A stretch of 64,000 nucleotides of DNA, taken from Kallipyga massiliensis ph2 (lineage in GTDB: Bacteria; Bacillota; Clostridia; Tissierellales; Peptoniphilaceae). Of the stretch, positions 21,444 to 53,721 are shown one piece after another. The position numbers and the translations under genes were made by a program. The DNA is taken from positions 235,335-299,334 of the forward strand of contig NZ_HE978586.1 in assembly GCF_000311985.1 (NCBI RefSeq), given 5' to 3'. The stretch's first letter is position 1; each line of letters opens with the position of its first letter. The notes beneath the pieces are model-generated. The model was not told the origin of the DNA. It did no database searches and saw only the letters and a list, made by a program, of their open reading frames with translations.

Positions 21444-22876
21444 GTATCACCCTCGCTCACGCGGGAAAGACTAAGGTGGCGGAAGCCCTTGTCCGCTCTC
21501 GCACGGGATCACCCCCGCTTACGCGGGAAAGACTTGAACTCGGATGTCCTCCACCGGTCGACGTTAGGATCACCCCCCGCTTACGCGGGAAAGACTGGCT
21601 GGTGTCGTGGTTGATTAAGGCCCTTACGGGATCACCCCCGCTTACGCGGGAAAGACCGGACTTGGCGTTCCGGTAAGACCCACCATGCGGGATCACCCTC
21701 GCTTACTCGGGAAAGACGTCAATGCTTTTGACCTGGTCCGGGTCCACCTCGGATCACCCCCGCTTACGCGGGAAAGACCCGCCCGAGATGGTTGTAATGA
21801 GTGGGGACTCAGGATCACCCCCGCTCGCGCGGGAAAGACTTTCGCACGATTTTCACACTATCCCGCCAGGCAGGATCACCCCCGCTCGCGCGGGAAAGAC
21901 TAATTCATTTTCCCTTCATAAAATGTTGGCGGAGGATCACCCCCGCTCGCGCGGGAAAGACTAGAGGCATGCCGGACTGCATAATGACCAAGGGGGATCA
22001 CCCCCGCTCGCGCGGGAAAGACTCAAAAAGTTCCTCCACCGTCTGCTCCAATTTGGGATCACCCCCGCTCGCGCGGGAAAGACGTGAAGGGGTCAAGGCC
22101 TGGGGCGGCGATAACGGGATCACCCCCGCTCGCGCGGGAAAGACTTCGCTGGTAACCCCATATCCCGGATGGAGCGAGGATCACCCCCGCTCGCGCGGGA
22201 AAGACAACGAATTATATTCGTAGCGACGAAATGGCAGAGGATCACCCCCGCTCGCGCGGGAAAGACAGGAGAAGCAAAGCACGGAGAAAGATGGATCAGG
22301 GATCACCCCCGCTCGCGCGGGAAAGACTTGGACGAGGACCCGGCTTCCCTTCCCGGTATAGGATCACCCCCGCTCGCGCGGGAAAGACTAGAGGCATGCC
22401 GGACTGCATAATGACCAAGGGGGATCACCCCCGCTCGCGCGGGAAAGACTCAAAAAGTTCCGCCACCGTCTGCTCCAATTTGGGATCACCCCCGCTCGCG
22501 CGGGAAAGACTTCCCCGGCTTGCCCCGGCCCCGGTTGCCCCGGGGATCACCCCCGCTCGCGCGGGAAAGACGTTCCCGACCGTGTTGGAGGTCTTGTTCC
22601 AGGGGGATCACCCCCGCTCGCGCGGGAAAGACTCCACGGCATCCAAAGTGTTGACGATGGTCACGGGATCACCCCCGCTCGCGCGGGAAAGACACGCTAA
22701 CATTCAGCGCTTCAATAAGAGTATAGGGATCACCCCCGCTCGCGCGGGAAAGACGGCCTACCTTGGTTGGGCCATTATGGACGGAAAGGATCACCCCCGC
22801 TCGCGCGGGAAAGACGCTTGCAATAATTCGCTTATCGGGACTGCTGTAGGATCACCCCCGCTCGCGCGGGAAAGAC
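21444..22876 (-). CRISPR. Type I-E CRISPR array, 24 repeats and 23 spacers
   Basis: Repeats are 28 bp with a CCCGCGCGAGCGGG palindrome, separated by 33-bp spacers (61-bp period). The sense orientation is the minus strand, repeat ending GTGATCC. The repeats nearest the cas genes (from about 21812 up) are identical; the five or six at the low-coordinate end have TAA or TGA in the loop and other changes, marking the old trailer end. Spacers 9 and 10 recur as 16 and 17. Spacers mostly begin (minus strand) with C or T, consistent with a PAM-derived base. Cas6e would process the transcript. Confidence 0.98.
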
Positions 22877-22895: not shown

Positions 22896-25370
<2,475 letters not shown>

Positions 25371-25384
<14 letters not shown>

Positions 25385-26096
25385 TTTCACCCCCTATAGC
25401 ACGAAAAGCATCATGGTCATCCTCTGTGTCCGCTTCTTCTTTTGGCAGCAAAATTTCTAAGCGATTTTCTTCACGAAAAAGATAGGACCGGTTCCGACTT
25501 GAAAAAGATACTGCTTCATCTTTCCGCATTCTCCCCCCAACCCCTTCACCAAGAGCAACATCAAAGTAAATTGGCAAGAAGGTGGGTGATTTGACGAAAT
25601 GTGACTTATTTTTTTGCCAGGAATAGGTCTTTAAGAGGTCCAAGGGAGATCCATCAAAAACACCAAGAAGAAAGTCATAGGTTGGCGGGACAGATCGACG
25701 ACCTAAAAAAGGTTGGAAATAGGGCTGCTGTAAAGCTTTCACGATCTCCTCAATTTGACCCGCCTTCTCACTTCCTAGGGCGACAAGAAAAACCCCATCC
25801 TCGATATAGTAACGGTTAGTCACATAGTTCCGGTCGAAGTCACCATTTTTCTTCAATTTATGAACGGTCTGATAGTCTTTCAAGAGTCGTCCCGGTTGGT
25901 CTACCCGAACGGCAAAATGAAGATCATTCAGACTCCTGATCTTATCATCCTCATCCCGACGATAGCCTAAACAAGCCGCAATCAGACCGACAACCCCACT
26001 CTTTGAAGGATAAAAATCCGTATGTCTACTTTCAAAGTGAGAGGAGGTTCCCCAAGACTGGAGAGGGCCGGCGAATTTTAAGAGTATGGTCCGCAT
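25371..26096 (-). CDS. cas5e: Cascade subunit Cas5e
   Basis: Caps the 5' handle of crRNA in Cascade; about 241 residues. It begins MRTILLKFAGPLQSWGTSSH, the hallmark N terminus of CasD/Cas5e, followed by HTDFYPSKSGVVGLIAACLG (residues about 26-45). The start at 26096 is favoured for this conserved N terminus and a GAGG site; an ATG 9 bp earlier overlaps the cas7 stop. It is tightly packed between cas7e and cas6e. Confidence 0.94.
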
Positions 26097-26097
26097 T

Positions 26098-27195
26098 TTA
26101 AGCATCCTCGCGTAAATTCACCATCGCTTCTTTTAAAATCGTTCCGAGCTGATCTTTCAAGTTTTCTAAAGAATGGCAATCCTGACCGAATTCTCCCTGG
26201 AGGGCTTCGGATACTTCCTCTGTGGTCACATACAATTTGGCTAAGGGCTCTCTGACAAAGCGCTGGGTCTTTTCTAATTCCTTTCCTAACCTCTTCATGG
26301 ACTCCTCGACATAGCCCTCTCCATCCTTTACCGGCTTTTCAAAAGCGGAAACGAGATTGACAGGACGGTCCTCCCGCAAAACGATCAAAAGGAGCTGGGG
26401 AAGGGTCGTATTGGCATAGCTATTGATTTTTCCTGTTGGTAAAGAATTGGCAAAAGCTTCTGCAAAAAGTTCCATGCTTGAAGCCGCACTTTCGACATTG
26501 CCCACCTGTCTCATGAATTCATGTAAGGAAACATTGGCATAACGATATAGGGTGGATGAGTTAAACTCAATGGTTCCCAACATCCCGGCTCCTGCTGAAT
26601 CTTTTTCCGAAAGATCATCCATGGCGGTATAAAAATCAAACTCTGTATCCACTCCATGAGTAGAGATGGCATGGGCGACTTGGCTTGAAGCGTCTTCATT
26701 CAGTGATGGATCATCGGCTACCATACGACCGAAAAGAGCAATATCTACCGCCGGATTACTTTTTAAGATCGCTTGAAGAGCTTGCTTGTCACTTATCCCT
26801 TCGATAGCCGCCTTGGCAAGATTTTTTGCCTGCAAGTCTCCCATAAAAAAGAGGGCTTTTGCTTTTTGATCCTTAGTTGATATTTTTGCTGCATTTAATG
26901 TTTTCTCTGCGAGATCCATCGCCTCCTTGTCAGAAATGGCAGGATCCTCTTCTTGAATCTTATCCGCAACATAGCGGACAATCCGGAGAGTGCGAATCCC
27001 TACATTATTTTGCTCTCCAAAATCATTGAAATACTTCCGAATAGCCCGTTTCCAAGCTTGTGAGGAAACTCGAGCCCGGCGAACACCACCATATAGGGCC
27101 GTTTTTGGACTTCCCGTATCATCGCGGTTGATATTCGAAGGGGGTAGGGTTTGAATTGCATGGATATCGAGATATAAACGTTTATTGGATGTCAT
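26098..27195 (-). CDS. cas7e: Cascade backbone subunit Cas7e
   Basis: CasC/Cse4 RNA-binding backbone protein present in about six copies per Cascade; 365 residues. The N terminus YLDIHAIQTLPPSNINRDDT and VRRARVSSQAWKRAIR (about residues 38-53) are the family signatures; NSSTLYRYANVSLHEF near 220 and SYANTTLPQLLLIVLREDRP (about 260) follow. A GGAGG site lies 7 bp upstream. It overlaps cse2 by 14 bp. Confidence 0.96.
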   Translation of the reverse strand: MTSNKRLYLDIHAIQTLPPSNINRDDTGSPKTALYGGVRRARVSSQAWKRAIRKYFNDFGEQNNVGIRTLRIVRYVADKIQEEDPAISDKEAMDLAEKTLNAAKISTKDQKAKALFFMGDLQAKNLAKAAIEGISDKQALQAILKSNPAVDIALFGRMVADDPSLNEDASSQVAHAISTHGVDTEFDFYTAMDDLSEKDSAGAGMLGTIEFNSSTLYRYANVSLHEFMRQVGNVESAASSMELFAEAFANSLPTGKINSYANTTLPQLLLIVLREDRPVNLVSAFEKPVKDGEGYVEESMKRLGKELEKTQRFVREPLAKLYVTTEEVSEALQGEFGQDCHSLENLKDQLGTILKEAMVNLREDA

Positions 27196-27787
27196 TGGAA
27201 TCCTCCTCTTTTTGGGGTTGATAGGAATAATAGGCCCTCGCCCAATTCAGGCGAACTTTTTCTTTCTGTCCTCGGATGAACCAGTAAAAATCTTCTGCTA
27301 GCTTTGCGTAGTTTACGCCCCGCTTGCTTTTACTTGCTTTTAGGAGCTTAATCAGTTGCCGAATGTGATAAGAAAGCTCATCAAAGCTATCGGAGGCAAT
27401 CATACCGTTGAATCGTTGATCGGTTGACCGGCTATCTCGGTCACGAATCGGTTGTAGGGAATAACCGAGGTTATTCCATATTCCCTCCTGGTCCCAGAGG
27501 AGAACACTATCTTCATTCCCTTGTTGGTGGATGGCATAGAGTTGTAGGGCATTCAAGATGGCTTTTTCCTCAGCAGTAGGCTCATCCTGATCCGTTAAAA
27601 AAGACTCCGGAAGCTCTTCATAAAGCAGGGACCAGATTTCAATGGATTGACTAAGAGGTCGTCCCAAAGACCTTCTTAGGTTAGACAAGATGGCCTTTGT
27701 GGCTGATGTTGACCTCGTCTTGTCCAACTTGAGCAAAATACGAGAGGTAACCTCGTAAATGCTATCCTTCTTCCTTTGTTGGGTCAC
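27182..27787 (-). CDS. cse2: Cascade small subunit Cse2 (Cas11e)
   Basis: All-helical CasB subunit that stabilises target and non-target strands; 201 residues. SNLRRSLGRPLSQSIEIWSL (about residues 36-55) and a basic C-terminal half with KRGVNYAKLAEDFYWFIRG fit the family. The start is a GTG at 27787 with AAAAGGAGG 6 bp upstream, overlapping the end of cse1; an ATG 30 bp further up lacks a site. Confidence 0.9.
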   Translation of the reverse strand: MTQQRKKDSIYEVTSRILLKLDKTRSTSATKAILSNLRRSLGRPLSQSIEIWSLLYEELPESFLTDQDEPTAEEKAILNALQLYAIHQQGNEDSVLLWDQEGIWNNLGYSLQPIRDRDSRSTDQRFNGMIASDSFDELSYHIRQLIKLLKASKSKRGVNYAKLAEDFYWFIRGQKEKVRLNWARAYYSYQPQKEEDSNDIQ

Positions 27788-29480
27788 GATTCTCCTCCTT
27801 TTCCGGCAATGCTTCATTCAAAAAATACATGAAGGAATTAAATGCTGTAGCAATGTTTTTCATGCCCTCATTGACTACAATTCCCCGGTAGTCTCTCTCC
27901 CCTGAGTGGGCCGCCAGGTCTTCCGCCTCCCTCCTGACCAGTCTCTTTAGCTCGCTATACCACCTGGAAATGGTCTCTTCCTTATCATCGTCCTTTCGGA
28001 TACCGCCCAGCCAATCTCTAAATGGCTGATCGACCAAGTAATACAGCTCCTCTACTTTTTGGCTGATATAATCTGCCGAGGAGATATTTCGAATCTCCTT
28101 CACATCCCGGATATAAAGGCCATATACCGTAGAAATAACCTTCTTTGTTTTTTCAACCGTGGCATAAATCCGCCCTATCCAACCGGATTCCTGCATGTCA
28201 GCCAGCACTTGGCTATTGATGAGTAGATAGTCATAGATTTCATCAACCGGCACCCATGAGGTGGCGTTCCCATCACTCTCCATAGAAATAGCCACTAGAT
28301 AGAGGTCCCTATCTCCGACCTCCTCTTGGATTGTCCGATACCATTGCATAATCCCGGGTTGATGATTTTCTTCTTTTTCGTCAAAATAATCTTCAACCAG
28401 GAGGCCAAATGACCGCCACAAAGACCGGTTTACCTGGTGTTTACGGGGGGTAAATTGTCCCTTATTTTCTCCCGATTGATTAAAACGCCAAAGGGTCATG
28501 GGCTCCAAGAACTGGTTAACGTGGTCAATATCCGGAAGCTTGACGACATCAAAAGAAAAGGGATCCGTCATTTTTGTTTCAGGATCAATATAGATCGCCC
28601 GGCTCCAAGCGGTATAAAGCTCTGACAGATTGTTCATCCGGTCAGCTGAAAAGCTTCTTCGGACCACTTCTTGGGGCGAATACTCCCAACATGGCCTTTC
28701 TAAGATGGCCGGCTCTCTCTCAGGGTGTTGGAGAATTAGATTCAGAAGAAGGGTGTCATAGAGATTGCTTCCCTGAAAATATAAGCCTCCGATATCGAAG
28801 AGCCAGCCCTTGGACGCCTTATATTTATCTTTCCCGAATATCGTCTTATCTGATAAGCCCGTGTAGAATTGAAAGGTAATCAACCATCGGGTTAACTCGC
28901 CTTCATCCAGTAGGTCCTTATTGTTCATTGACTCATGCTTGGGAGAAAATAGGGCTGTTTTGTTTCCGCTTTCCGAAATGAGTCGGTTGATATTTTTCCC
29001 GGAAATCGAGCCGGCTTTTGATTTGTTCAACTTCTCCGAGGCAACGTCTTCTTCCCTGACCTGAAAAAACGGAAATTCCTCATCGAATAGATAAAAATGC
29101 TCTTCCCAAACTTCCAGGTATTCATATAAGATAGCCGGAAATTCCTTTTTTCTCCATAGAGTTTTCCAACAATCCAACAAGTCTTGAGAATACATCCTAT
29201 CTTCTAAAATCTCATCCCTCTCTTCCGTTGAAGGTTGGTGGAGGTCATTCAGTTCAAGATCCTCATACACCTTCCCTTCCCCGTCATAACGAGTGAAGAC
29301 CGTTTGAAGAACCGCTTCTAAAATCCGTAAGACTGCAAAGCTTTGCGTGGGCATATCACCGGAAAGGGACTTTATCCGGTTGGCTTGGCGGAAGACATCT
29401 AAAAGAGAATACTCTTTATTTTCTCCGTTTTCTGTAATAACGGGAATCCAAGCCTCCCTTAACAAGTTAAATCTTCCCAT
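27762..29480 (-). CDS. cse1: Cascade large subunit Cse1 (Cas8e)
   Basis: CasA large subunit that recognises the PAM and recruits Cas3; 572 residues, slightly longer than the E. coli protein. It opens MGRFNLLREAWIPVITENGE, the usual Cse1 start (W-I-P-V), has AVLRILEAVLQTVF, and a four-helix C-terminal bundle (about residues 380-560). Its L1 loop region near LNKSKAGSISGKNINRLIS is Ser/Gly-rich. It overlaps cas3 by 14 bp and cse2 by 26 bp. Confidence 0.94.
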   Translation of the reverse strand: MGRFNLLREAWIPVITENGENKEYSLLDVFRQANRIKSLSGDMPTQSFAVLRILEAVLQTVFTRYDGEGKVYEDLELNDLHQPSTEERDEILEDRMYSQDLLDCWKTLWRKKEFPAILYEYLEVWEEHFYLFDEEFPFFQVREEDVASEKLNKSKAGSISGKNINRLISESGNKTALFSPKHESMNNKDLLDEGELTRWLITFQFYTGLSDKTIFGKDKYKASKGWLFDIGGLYFQGSNLYDTLLLNLILQHPEREPAILERPCWEYSPQEVVRRSFSADRMNNLSELYTAWSRAIYIDPETKMTDPFSFDVVKLPDIDHVNQFLEPMTLWRFNQSGENKGQFTPRKHQVNRSLWRSFGLLVEDYFDEKEENHQPGIMQWYRTIQEEVGDRDLYLVAISMESDGNATSWVPVDEIYDYLLINSQVLADMQESGWIGRIYATVEKTKKVISTVYGLYIRDVKEIRNISSADYISQKVEELYYLVDQPFRDWLGGIRKDDDKEETISRWYSELKRLVRREAEDLAAHSGERDYRGIVVNEGMKNIATAFNSFMYFLNEALPEKEENRDPTKEEG

Positions 29481-32196
29481 CCTCCATCCTTTCTAGGGTT
29501 AAGCCAAATGTTGAATCATAGTGCAAGCGGAAGTTAAATAGTTCAAACCACCCCCCTTCATCAAAGATAATTCCCAGTGCTCCCTTTAACCAAGAGGACT
29601 CCTGCCAATCCGGCAGATTCTCCAAGGTAAACTGCTCCAATTCATCAATCGTTCGGTCAATGATATAGGGTCTTGATAGGGCATTTGGCAAAGTGATGGT
29701 GTGTTTGGCAATGTCTTGAGCCACCTTGTTATCTCCGATTTGTCCGGAAAGATCCTCTTCCCCTTCAAAAAATCCGTAGCCTCCCTGCTTTCTTTGGAGG
29801 GCGATCACCTCAACTCTTTCATCGCTATCCCTGACCTGGGCATAGCCCCTTTCCTCGGAATCAATAGCCGGCGAATTGGCCAACCATCCTTCGATGGTCT
29901 TCATTCTTTGGGGCCTTCCCAACAGAAAATTCTCCGCCCTGGCCTTCTTTTGATTTTTCTTTTCCTCATAACGGGTCCGGGCCTCTTTGTGCTTTTCCTG
30001 CCTTTCTTCGTCCGTAAAAAGGGCTATTTCCCCATACACCTTTTGGACAAGAGGGGATATATCCTCCGGCATGCTTAGCTGGTCCGGTAAATAATACAGG
30101 GTCTGACCCAGGAGATAATCTCCGTAAACCGCGGATGATCCCGGTTCAAAATCCAATTGGTCATTACTGCCCATGACATAACAGATAGCTTTTTCATACT
30201 TTTTCGGACGCTTGGTCTCTTTATGCCTGTGTAAGCGTCCAATCCGTTGAATCAGGAGGTCCATGGGTGCGAGATCGGTAAACAGCGAGTCAAGATCTAT
30301 GTCAAGAGATTGCTCAATCACTTGGCTCCCAATAACAATCATCCCCTTAGGTCGGTCCCCTCCCCTTTGTAACATGGATAAGAGTTGATTTTCTTTCTTG
30401 GCCCGGTCGCTGGCGATAAAGGCAGAATGGAGGAGAAGAACTTGATCTGAAGAAAAACGCTCGATGCATTCTTGAGCGAATTGCTGAGCACGCTTGACCG
30501 TATTAACGACCACGCCGGCTACGCCCTCTGTTGCAAGGCAGTCCTCTAAGAGTTCCATAAGATCCTCTTCGTCCAATTTTCGCATGTCCACTCGTTTATT
30601 GTTGGCAGTGTCCGGAGAGAAGTCTGCAAAATAGTGAAGCTCTTTTCCATCGCTATAGGTGAGGAGGGGATAGGCCTCCTCCAAATCCGGGCGGAACATT
30701 CCCTTGATTTCTCTTCGCCGACAACCCTTCCCTGAAAGATATGCCGCTAATAGTTGATTCCGGGTCTCAATAGGAAGAGTGGCTGAAAGTAAGATCACCG
30801 GAATCCCATAAAAAGCCAACCATCGCAAGGCTGTGGCTAAATACTGGTTCATATAAGCATCATAGGCATGAACCTCATCAACGATGACCACCTTTTTACT
30901 CATCCCGAGGTGACGCAAGGCCAGGTGTTTCTGTTTCAAAGCCAGTAGGAGGAGTTGGTCCACCGTTCCGATAACAAAGGAATCCAGGGAAGCTGTTTTA
31001 CGACCGGAGAACCATTGGTTGGTCGGAATGGATCCTTCCCCATCGATATCGATGCCATGAGAAACCCGGTCGTAAAGCGGGTTTAAAGCTGCCTTCCCAT
31101 GTTGAAGTCGAGGGAAAAATTGATTATCCGGATCCAACTTGTCCATCCAAGCTTTAATCCTGGGATAAATCCCATTGCTGGTTGCTTGGGTGGGAAGGCC
31201 AAAAAACAAACCGCTGGCATGCGTTTTCGCTGCAATCTGTTCGCAGGCAATGAGGGAAGCTTCAGTTTTTCCCATCCCCATGGGTGCTTCAAAAATAAGA
31301 ATTCCCGGTTCCTGGATTTGGTCAATCACCCGGTTCATCTCTTCCTGAGCCTTTCGTGGGGCGAATCCAAAGCGGGACTGGTAGAGAGAAACGAGATCCC
31401 CAAACTTCTCCGCCCTCCATCGGGACTGGTTGCTCGCCCACTTTTCAAAGCCTCGGGAACGGCGAGTCTCACCATCAGGAGCTTCTTTGTCATCAAAGGG
31501 ATATAAAGGAAAATATTCCTCATTAGAAGCGATCCAGTCTGCCATAATAACCAGACCTGAAAGCAAAACCTGACCCCTGACATCCACCGTCGGAAGATCC
31601 TGAATAGAAGAAAAGCCGGAAGTCCTAAGTGCCTCCTCAATAATCTTTTCCTGGGCCCTCTTCCATCTTTGGTGAATGACTGACTTTTCGTTCTCTTCCT
31701 GATAAAAGTTAGCTGAGTAACTATTAATCAATGAGGGTTCGATATGATTGCTGGGGCGGCCATGATGACCACCGACAATTAATGCCAGATCCTCCCCTAT
31801 GCCCATCTCTAAGAGAAGGACCTGCCCCGCTTCAGAGTGGTGGACCTTATGGGGCTCTGATAGGTAGAGATGGCTCAGATCAATGTAACCCTCACGTTCC
31901 AATCTATCCACAAGAGCCTGGTCTATATCGCTGGGGCGGTGGAAAAATCCCATGGCCTGGAAGGCAGGACTGGCCTTGCCCTCGTCGTGCGTTGCAGCGA
32001 GAAAGATGAGGGTGGCCCTTGCTAGCTCTTCTGAAGAAGGAGATATTGAACGGATGATCATGGCCCGCTGACCCTCATCCAACCATAAATCCCAGAGCTT
32101 TTTGGCTACCTCGCAAGTATCTTTCAAATGGTCGCTGAGGCTGATCCATTTCAGTTGGCCACTTTTATCATCTTTTTTTGCCCAGAAAGAATCCAT
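29467..32196 (-). CDS. cas3: CRISPR helicase-nuclease Cas3
   Basis: Degrades DNA recognised by Cascade; 909 residues. The N-terminal HD nuclease has HLKDTCEVA (about residue 23), ATHDEGKASPAFQ (about 89) and GGHHGRPSN (about 140). The SF2 helicase follows: Walker A FEAPMGMGKTEAS (about 300), Walker B VIVDEVHAYD (about 430), motif III LLSATLP, and a C-terminal helicase half with VIGSQVIEQSLDIDLD and QRIGRLHRH. It is the first gene of the cas operon and has an AGGAG site. Confidence 0.96.
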   Translation of the reverse strand: MDSFWAKKDDKSGQLKWISLSDHLKDTCEVAKKLWDLWLDEGQRAMIIRSISPSSEELARATLIFLAATHDEGKASPAFQAMGFFHRPSDIDQALVDRLEREGYIDLSHLYLSEPHKVHHSEAGQVLLLEMGIGEDLALIVGGHHGRPSNHIEPSLINSYSANFYQEENEKSVIHQRWKRAQEKIIEEALRTSGFSSIQDLPTVDVRGQVLLSGLVIMADWIASNEEYFPLYPFDDKEAPDGETRRSRGFEKWASNQSRWRAEKFGDLVSLYQSRFGFAPRKAQEEMNRVIDQIQEPGILIFEAPMGMGKTEASLIACEQIAAKTHASGLFFGLPTQATSNGIYPRIKAWMDKLDPDNQFFPRLQHGKAALNPLYDRVSHGIDIDGEGSIPTNQWFSGRKTASLDSFVIGTVDQLLLLALKQKHLALRHLGMSKKVVIVDEVHAYDAYMNQYLATALRWLAFYGIPVILLSATLPIETRNQLLAAYLSGKGCRRREIKGMFRPDLEEAYPLLTYSDGKELHYFADFSPDTANNKRVDMRKLDEEDLMELLEDCLATEGVAGVVVNTVKRAQQFAQECIERFSSDQVLLLHSAFIASDRAKKENQLLSMLQRGGDRPKGMIVIGSQVIEQSLDIDLDSLFTDLAPMDLLIQRIGRLHRHKETKRPKKYEKAICYVMGSNDQLDFEPGSSAVYGDYLLGQTLYYLPDQLSMPEDISPLVQKVYGEIALFTDEERQEKHKEARTRYEEKKNQKKARAENFLLGRPQRMKTIEGWLANSPAIDSEERGYAQVRDSDERVEVIALQRKQGGYGFFEGEEDLSGQIGDNKVAQDIAKHTITLPNALSRPYIIDRTIDELEQFTLENLPDWQESSWLKGALGIIFDEGGWFELFNFRLHYDSTFGLTLERMEDGKI

Positions 32197-32250
32197 AGAA
32201 TGCTCCTAGAAATAAATATTTAGGAAATCGTTTTGTTTCATTTGATATTA

Positions 32251-32279
32251 ATTATAATACTCTTAAAAGTAATAGTCAA
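32251..32279 (-). promoter_or_regulatory. Promoter of the cas operon
   Basis: TTGACT, 17 bp, consensus TATAAT on the minus strand, predicting a start near 32244 and a 48-nt leader before cas3. It is a strong promoter for a cas operon, which makes a dedicated repressor plausible. Confidence 0.88.
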
Positions 32280-32289
32280 CAAAAATAAA

Positions 32290-32306
32290 CTTAGTTTACA
32301 AAAACC
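32290..32306 (+). promoter_or_regulatory. Predicted Cascade binding site upstream of the cas promoter
   Basis: The plus strand reads AA then CTTAGTTTACAAAAACC. The pseudo-spacer of the adjacent mini-CRISPR reads TTTAGTGTACAATAACC. Leaving aside the first pyrimidine, 14 of 16 bases match and the two mismatches are at spacer positions 6 and 12, which do not pair in type I-E Cascade. AA is the PAM inferred from the main array. The site starts 8 bp upstream of the cas3 -35 element. Confidence 0.7.
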
Positions 32307-32324
32307 AGTCCAATATTGGACTGG
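32300..32324 (-). terminator. Terminator of the mini-CRISPR RNA
   Basis: On the minus strand CCAGTCC pairs with GGACTGG around AATATT, followed by TTTTTG. It separates the small RNA gene from the cas promoter. Confidence 0.85.
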
Positions 32325-32335
32325 CCTTTGTATAA

Positions 32336-32424
32336 TTTAAGAACCCGCTAACGCGGGCAAAAAATAATCCTTACTGTACGGTTATTGTACACTAAAGGAT
32401 CACCCCCGCTTACGCGGGAATTAC
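32336..32424 (-). CRISPR. Mini-CRISPR: repeat, pseudo-spacer, degenerate repeat
   Basis: Repeat 1 (32397-32424) keeps the CCCGCGTAAGCGGG stem and the 3' GTGATCC handle but has GTAATT in place of GTCTTT at its 5' end. The spacer is 32364-32396 (33 nt). The second repeat (32336-32363) is in exact register and keeps CCCGCGT, A and GCGGG but has lost the handle. The TAA loop matches the old repeats at the trailer end of the main array. Confidence 0.85.
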
Positions 32425-32435
32425 TCTACATCGAT

Positions 32436-32444
32436 AGTATATCA
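32436..32444 (-). promoter_or_regulatory. Extended -10 promoter of the mini-CRISPR RNA
   Basis: TGATATACT on the minus strand fits TGnTATAAT. Transcription would start near 32429, immediately before the repeat. No clear -35 is present. Confidence 0.65.
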
Positions 32445-32569
32445 AATCTTAATTCCGGGATTATTCCACTTCTTCACCTGAAATAAAATATAATAAATAT
32501 AACATGGAAAACTGACAAAGCGTACAAAGTGACAATTAATTATTCATCCCCTATTTGAAAGGAGATTAT

Positions 32570-32911
32570 ATGACCATCTTTCGTCATTTTTTAAAGAAGA
32601 GTACAAATGATTTTAGCCTCATGGAGGCCGCTCAAATTCTCCATGACCAGCCCGATTCCGCCATCCTCCTCGATGTCCGCAGTGATGAGGAATGGAAGGA
32701 GGGCCACCTTTCCTGTGCCCATCATATTCCCCACGACCAAATCCGGCAAAGGGCCAAAGAGGAGCTTCCTCTAGATAAGCCCCTCTTTGTTTATTGTCGG
32801 TCGGGCCACCGAGCCGGACTCGCCAAGAAGGACCTGGAAGAGCTTGGCTTTACTGAGGTCCATAATGTGGGTGGGATTTTGGATTATAAGGGGGACTTGG
32901 AAGTTTTTTAA
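32570..32911 (+). CDS. Rhodanese-like sulfurtransferase
   Basis: Single-domain rhodanese of 113 residues. The active-site loop is VYCRSGHRAG (about residues 72-81) with the persulfide-forming Cys, and the domain has ILLDVRSDEEWKEGHL near the start and NVGGILDYKGD at the end. These proteins carry sulfane sulfur in the cytosol. The ATG at 32570 follows AAAGGAG. It is divergent from the CRISPR locus and appears to be a host gene marking the left border of the integrative element. Confidence 0.88.
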   Translation: MTIFRHFLKKSTNDFSLMEAAQILHDQPDSAILLDVRSDEEWKEGHLSCAHHIPHDQIRQRAKEELPLDKPLFVYCRSGHRAGLAKKDLEELGFTEVHNVGGILDYKGDLEVF

Positions 32912-53303: not shown

Positions 53304-53721
53304 AGGGGGTGTCGAATTCCCCCTTAAATGGCCATTTTGGCGGATAAGGGGGACAGACGATTCCCCCTTAAACGGGGATTTTCAAAGATGAGGGGGACAA
53401 GCGATTCCCCCTCAAATGGCCATTTTCACAGATAAGGGGGACAAATGATTCCCCCTTAAATGGCCAATTTGGCAGATGAGGGGGACAAACGACTCCCCCT
53501 TAAATGGACAATTTGGCAGATGAGGGGGCTTCGCTTGGCCCCCTTTTTCCATGATTTCGTCAGTTAAGGGGGCTTCCAATGGCCCCCTTTTCCCCCGGTT
53601 TTGCCAGATGAGGGGGCTCCGCTTGGCCCCCTTTTCCTCTGATTCCGACAGATGAGGGGGAAAAATGATTCCCCCTTAAATGGCTATTTGTCCAGATGAG
53701 GGGGATAAGCGACCATCAGCC
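53304..53721. repeat. Tandem array of ten 44-bp hairpin units
   Basis: Units begin AGGGGG at 53304, 53347, 53391, 53435, 53479, 53523, 53567, 53611, 53655 and 53699, with an exact 44-bp step after the first. Each holds AGGGGG-N10-CCCCCT, then a second small palindrome near AAATGGCCATTT. The base closing the loop is A:T in most units and C:G in three, a compensatory change. The period is not a multiple of three and no gene is present. The last unit is incomplete. Confidence 0.93.

Follow-up and report, generated by a model that had tools for sequence, protein, structure and literature searches.

A candidate CreR mini-CRISPR unit upstream of cas3 in Kallipyga massiliensis and guide-target pairs of the same kind at related cas3 loci

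The cas locus and its mini-CRISPR unit

The window, the whole 64,000-nucleotide stretch of Kallipyga massiliensis ph2 DNA analysed here, comes from a draft genome of 1,770,670 bases in 3 contigs that is 90.79% complete. It carries a type I-E cas operon, a CRISPR array and, between cas3 and a divergent gene, a much smaller unit built from the same family of repeats. The larger features are these:

21444..22876, read on the minus strand: CRISPR array, with the repeat family of the mini-CRISPR unit
22896..29480, minus strand: cse1, cse2, cas7, cas5, cas6, cas1 and cas2, the remainder of the type I-E operon after cas3
29467..32196, minus strand: cas3, the first gene of the operon
32555..32911, divergent from cas3: rhodanese-like gene; the mini-CRISPR unit sits between the two

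The cas2 gene (22896-23897, minus strand) is fused to a DnaQ-type (RNase_T) exonuclease domain. Elsewhere in the window, at 53316-53704, a 44-base unit occurs in imperfect tandem repeats. The region upstream of cas3 holds the features on which the rest of this report turns:

32251..32279, minus strand: cas3 promoter, TTGACT-17-TATAAT, 11/12 to consensus
32288..32290, plus strand: PAM-like AAC, directly before the target
32291..32306, plus strand: target (seed protospacer) TTAGTTTACAAAAACC, matched by the guide at 14/16
32298..32324, minus strand: palindrome 32324-32305, followed on this strand by TTTTTGT, the predicted creR terminator; its T-tract overlaps the target
32336..32363, minus strand: degenerate second repeat, with the hairpin CCCGC-GTTA-GCGGG retained and GTGATCC gone
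32364..32396, minus strand: pseudo-spacer, 33 nt; guide position 1 is 32395 and positions 1-16 are 32395-32380
32397..32424, minus strand: first repeat GTAATTCCCGCGTAAGCGGGGGTGATCC, 28 nt, ending with the handle GTGATCC (32403-32397)
32436..32444, minus strand: extended -10 TGATATACT, the creR promoter predicted from sequence

An earlier note on this DNA had described a repeat, a 33-nt pseudo-spacer, a degenerate repeat in register and a promoter-like -10, and all of them read as claimed. The three former elements stand on the minus strand in exact 61-nt register, and the 61 nt between the hairpin centres is also the spacing in 514 of the 547 handle-like pairs that lie 40-75 nt apart across all loci. 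The first repeat has the hairpin CCCGC-GTAA-GCGGG and shares a 22-base core with the array repeats at 21506, 21629 and 21751. The unit is crRNA-like, with a repeat-derived handle and degenerate repeats, and it adjoins the cas operon outside the array; it has one good and one degenerate repeat, not the several near-identical repeats of an ordinary array. A TTAC loop variant is common to the creR repeat (32397) and the three exact array repeats, which lie at the low-coordinate end of the array, and 18 array repeats from 21812 onward carry a TCGC loop; creR may be older than the array's current repeat version.

How would such a unit begin and end its transcript? The creR start is predicted near 32430-32429, with no good -35 in view, and the promoter scan did not report this promoter. 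In the stretch it covered, that scan found 3 promoter-like sites against 2.0 expected from shuffles, so that alone it is weak proof of any promoter. The intrinsic terminator of the earlier note survives in altered form: a terminator-like hairpin is present, but it is better placed at the palindrome 32324-32305 than at the second repeat, whose hairpin has no T-run behind it. Judged by its letters, the palindrome is the likely creR terminator; the terminator scan reported it on the plus strand only. A search of Rfam returned five matches (E 0.4 to 0.72), all far under gathering scores, and the guide with its handle, sought in viral_contigs, gave 0 matches.

The guide and its target

The guide matches the target at 14 of 16 positions, missing only positions 6 and 12, and the match then ends; this, too, was confirmed on re-reading, position 17 beyond the matched stretch being mismatched as well. 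The site was said to begin 8 bp upstream of the cas3 -35, and 8 bp do separate AAC from TTGACT. Target and core promoter are separate in the window; the target takes up the A/T-rich DNA immediately before the -35, the position expected of an UP element. The unit thereby shows the limited, seed-type complementarity to a cas promoter region, behind a PAM, that marks a CreR, and it lacks the near full-length match of an ordinary self-targeting spacer, the match stopping at position 16 of 32.

Besides the guide itself, the target is the sole place in the draft genome with at most 2 mismatches. Three further places have 3 mismatches, and a reversed control pattern has 4 places at 3 mismatches or fewer. 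The combination of AAY with positions 1-5 and 7-11 occurs at 1 place in this genome, and its reversed control at 0. In the genome's own array, 22 of the 23 handles have C or T as the 29th repeat base, which fits a PAM ending in a pyrimidine. In a lactobacillar type I-E system, according to excerpts of PMC11288051, the PAM AAT has been validated, and AAY stands at three self-target sites outside prophages.

Recurrence at other cas3 loci

Loci with cas3 were gathered by searches of the family, order and class to which the window's genome belongs, together with named genome contigs, and further loci were drawn from the families of one Levilactobacillus andaensis genome and of one MAG. From 191 loci one (L125) was dropped for want of an N-terminal match, and the remaining 190 were oriented by tblastn; after removal of 18 duplicates and of 4 loci with less than 150 bp upstream, 168 distinct cas3 upstream regions were left. 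L045 and L068 were kept despite stops flagged by the orientation check, and three cas3 matches were left out as unfetched or partial (the rows of G664 and G996 begin inside cas3). At least one handle-bearing spacer lies within 1,000 bp upstream in 66 of the 168 loci, for a total of 296 spacers. A seed match was defined as a core run of at least 10, with positions 6 and 12 ignored, inside the spacer's own cas3 upstream region.

Nineteen of the 296 spacers have such a match, 17 of them behind AAC or AAT; the remaining two (L126, L037) have a core run of 10 behind ATG, about chance level. Pairing spacers with the upstream regions of other loci gave core runs of at least 10 in 169 of 49,432 cases, with no PAM required, or about 1 expected among 296 spacers. 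At core runs of at least 12, the handle-bearing spacers yield 13 self matches in 296 versus 12 in 49,432 cross-locus pairings. A guide-target pair behind AAC or AAT is thus found in 17 of 168 regions, or 16 non-redundant units once L161 is excluded as a near-copy of L162, and the other 151 regions hold no such pair. The CreR-like reading that the earlier note had drawn from the letters is strengthened by the excess of self matches and by the recurrence of the exception at 6 and 12 across the 16 loci taken together.

In the window's family the pair is present in 4 of 36 distinct loci (the window's own, L009, and L015, L017 and L032), and this family includes named Anaerococcus genomes, with identical upstream regions. 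Eleven of the 16 units are lactobacillar, among them those of Lentilactobacillus rapi (L064) and Loigolactobacillus bifermentans (L088), and one, L042, comes from a MAG titled Clostridiaceae. Guide sequences vary from locus to locus, yet each guide matches its own cas3 upstream region. Covariation of guide and target, which the earlier note had proposed to look for in relatives, is found at this range; no close-range covariation is readable, because the two other genomes of the window's genus (G079, G080) have no cas3 match.

A handle-free search returned 19 rows in 17 loci and placed the guide directly behind GTGA[T/C]CC-N in 14 of these loci (13 non-redundant); the null was 4 in 503 locus pairs. 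Five of the 19 rows are not the expected guide units (L126, two of L185, L064 on the wrong strand, and a second L009 row by way of the terminator hairpin), and the search missed L159 and L199.

The start about 5 nt before the repeat, predicted in the earlier note, has a counterpart in the comparison. Five units, L009 (the window), L015, L032, L088 and L199, have a -10-like hexamer that starts exactly 38 nt upstream of the handle, and this spacing predicts just such a start; in other units (L017, L129, L168, L194) the distance is 32-41 nt or no hexamer stands out. Of the 16 targets, 10 overlap one of the three promoters predicted best, where random placement expects 4.8.

Two further units were observed outside the counted set. 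L038, in the window's family, has a two-repeat mini-CRISPR about 280 bp upstream of cas3, for which no matching site was found upstream of cas3; its first guide, the sole one sought genome-wide, has no exact seed site in its genome. In L054, a mini-CRISPR about 630 bp upstream of cas3 has a guide that matches, at 21/23 positions, a site preceded by AAC in the same cas3 upstream region. The mismatches are at positions 6 and 7, so that this is a longer match with a seed flaw, off the pattern; it fails the filter and is uncounted.

Pairing with a period of six

What reads these pairs? Selection used positions 1-5, 7-11 and afterwards AAY only, and the other positions are therefore informative. 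Over the 16 pairs, matches number 7 at position 6, 3 at position 12, 15 at position 13, 13 at position 14, 10 at position 15, 8 at position 16 and 3 at position 17. The contrast between position 12 (3/16) and position 13 (15/16) gives a Fisher p of 3.9e-5, or 1.2e-4 without the window's pair, in statistics that treat loci as independent and use no tree. Pooled, positions 6 and 12 match in 10 of 32 cases, which does not differ from an assumed 30% (p = 0.85), so these positions look neutral and not selected to mismatch. Positions 18 and 24 match in 9/16 and 8/16, above their neighbours 17, 19-23 and 25, which may be chance.

According to excerpts of PMC13122317, every sixth base of a type I-E crRNA is unpaired with DNA, and excerpts of PMC8501985 state that the type I-B CreA requires bases 1-5 and 7-11 and that 6 and 12 can be changed. 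The period-6 pattern, taken with this published geometry of Cascade, indicates that Cascade reads these pairs, or did so until not long ago. Pairing by Cascade geometry, as expected of a CreR, is what the 16 loci show.

Could the unit instead be a functionless remnant, a decayed self-targeting spacer or orphan array whose match is left over from a spacer taken from the locus? The degenerate repeats and the fading of the match after position 16 agree with decay, as does the L038 unit without a match, and excerpts of PMC11288051 describe self-targeting spacers as common in some lactobacilli. Such a remnant would lose its matches evenly, but position 12 is free and position 13 is kept; only the 10 seed positions are uninformative on this point, because they were used for pair selection. 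Moreover, the same type of pair recurs at other loci with different sequences. We regard decay as improbable, and a neutral remnant was rejected on the contrast between positions 12 and 13.

Still less credence attaches to a read-through attenuator between creR and cas3, in which guide and target would be the arms of an RNA (or DNA) stem with no part for Cascade. As an attenuator would have it, guide and target of the window are inverted copies within a single predicted transcript, and the terminator-like palindrome has the target as its T-tract. But 11 of the 16 pairs have both on one strand, where pairing within one RNA is impossible, and an RNA stem was rejected on this ground. Nor would a stem free positions 6 and 12 or put AAC or AAT before the site. 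The period-6 signature speaks for reading by Cascade; neither duplication nor an RNA stem would leave it.

Equally improbable is a CreTA-like antitoxin, with a guide that would silence not cas3 but some toxin RNA or small toxin gene concealed at this site: CreA units look alike, with two degenerate repeats and a seed of 1-5 plus 7-11 (excerpts of PMC8501985), but the promoter adjoining the target points into cas3, the six mechanical ORFs of at least 20 aa in 32197-32554, all with TTG or ATG starts, lie in unconvincing places, and none of at least 20 aa lies on the cas3 strand between the cas3 promoter and cas3, on which grounds a CreTA module was set aside, although a toxin RNA could escape a reading of the sequence.

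Guide length and folding

The guides of the 16 units fall into two length classes with none between, 33 nt in 8 and about 21-23 nt in 8. All four units of the window's family and four lactobacillar units have the longer guide; seven lactobacillar units (L064, L129, L159, L162, L171, L194, L199) and L042 have the shorter, about 10-12 nt below array spacers. For this measure L195 was given an alternative second hairpin at 61 nt, and the value of 32.5 for L015 was counted as 33. An engineered type I-B system at 24 bp lost interference and primed adaptation and retained repression, according to excerpts of PMC10989794, and short guides would accordingly suit a brake.

The full-length guides are unusually self-folded: their z averages -2.34 and that of 501 array spacers -0.07 (p = 4.1e-6, or 4.1e-5 once the window's guide is removed). 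The effect is driven by L009, L017, L165 and L088; L015, L168 and L032 are unremarkable singly, and the short guides are not unusually folded (p = 0.17). The fold was first noticed in the window and tested across guides afterwards. There it takes the following form:

32364..32403, minus strand: handle plus spacer, predicted single 40-nt hairpin burying the handle, -14.5 kcal/mol, z -5.73

None of 200 shuffles is as stable, and 1 of the 501 array spacers is as extreme by z; the window's own 23 array spacers have a mean z of -0.26. Across the 8 full-length guides, the seed is less accessible than in controls (p = 0.023, with 0.007 for low-GC controls and 0.020 once the window's guide is left out), and for the handle no difference from controls emerges (p = 0.15, or 0.13 with the 168 low-GC ones). 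All 4 guides of the window's family have a handle accessibility of 0.27 or less, as do 66 of the 501 array spacers and 3 of the 23 in the genome's own array, a comparison made post hoc. The idea that the 3' half of the guide is generally complementary to the handle was considered and rejected (p = 0.71 over the 8 full-length guides); three of the four guides of the window's family score -6.1 to -7.1 kcal/mol for it.

Why keep, fold or shed a half that does not match the target? One speculative answer, which we think unlikely, is that the target-unmatched half of a CreR guide is a built-in brake, folded in full-length guides and deleted in short ones, so that CreR would gauge free Cascade by losing the competition for it. 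The 3' half of a full-length guide would fold over handle and seed, so that by design Cascade would take the guide up poorly; the short guides, at about 21-23 nt, would fall roughly two Cas7 footprints below normal; and CreR would load only onto the Cascade left over by array crRNAs.

Discussion

The unit is a one-spacer mini-CRISPR with a guide that matches a site upstream of the cas3 promoter, and in relatives the match of a guide to its own cas3 region bears the period-6 signature. On these grounds we hold with good confidence that it encodes a CreR, an RNA predicted to be cut by Cas6, to be loaded onto Cascade and to repress its own operon. Transcription would start from TGATATACT, and Cas6 processing at the first hairpin would yield an RNA starting GUGAUCCU at 32403. 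Cascade bound through the seed only, over the A/T-rich stretch upstream of the -35, would hinder RNA polymerase; alternatively, in the window, bound Cascade would be a roadblock to read-through from creR. Such interference, from a site 8 bp upstream of the -35, is the weakest step at this locus. Since pairing ends at position 16, no attack by Cas3 would be expected to follow. By analogy with published CreR and CreA work, repression would be relieved once array crRNAs or anti-CRISPRs occupy Cascade, and the tight predicted fold of handle and guide could hamper loading. The earlier note spoke of a complete autorepression circuit, and as a reading of the sequence this is plausible.

What does the comparison add? 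A clean type I-E CreR candidate joins the class in the Anaerococcus family, and 16 guide-target pairs of differing sequence fit the rule established at the bench: positions 6 and 12 are free, position 13 is conserved, and pairing has ended by about position 16. A scattered class thereby becomes a natural data set and offers a sequence test for such brakes in other type I-E genomes. The pairs are also a natural measure of the shortest match that allows Cascade to bind without destruction of the chromosome. What stops a regulatory RNA from out-competing immune guides could be approached through the bimodal length and the folding of the guides, both of which can be tested.

Comparison with known systems

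Shmakov et al. 2023 (NAR) reportedly described standalone repeats, along with mini-arrays that lie close to cas genes and carry spacers in part complementary to cas promoters.

A further likeness is tracr-L of Streptococcus pyogenes Cas9, which in the excerpts of PMC8616872 uses an 11-nt match by which the effector represses its own cas promoter without cleavage; it differs in being type II, with Cas9 and a long tracrRNA and no mini-CRISPR in those excerpts. Another is CreA of the type I-B haloarchaeal CreTA (excerpts of PMC8501985 and PMC9458426), which has two degenerate repeats, a seed of 1-5 plus 7-11 and positions 6 and 12 free. CreA, as described there, represses a toxin RNA and not cas genes, and no toxin candidate is seen at the unit described here.

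The class to which the unit probably belongs is CreR (Liu et al. 2023, Cell Host Microbe, via excerpts of PMC13131331 and PMC12737573): a mini-CRISPR by cas genes, with no toxin gene seen, whose guide has limited complementarity to the cas promoter region. According to the same excerpts, CreRs are reported for types I-B, I-E and V-A and repress cas genes by way of partial matches to their promoters; they react to the supply of crRNA, and anti-CRISPR proteins lift the repression. Type I-E CreRs are thus already published (PMC13131331, in excerpt), and the unit here adds a candidate to a known class. It differs from those in the excerpts in its new locus, in the Anaerococcus family, in a target upstream of the core promoter and in a strongly folded guide; the length classes and the folded guides may be variants of CreR.
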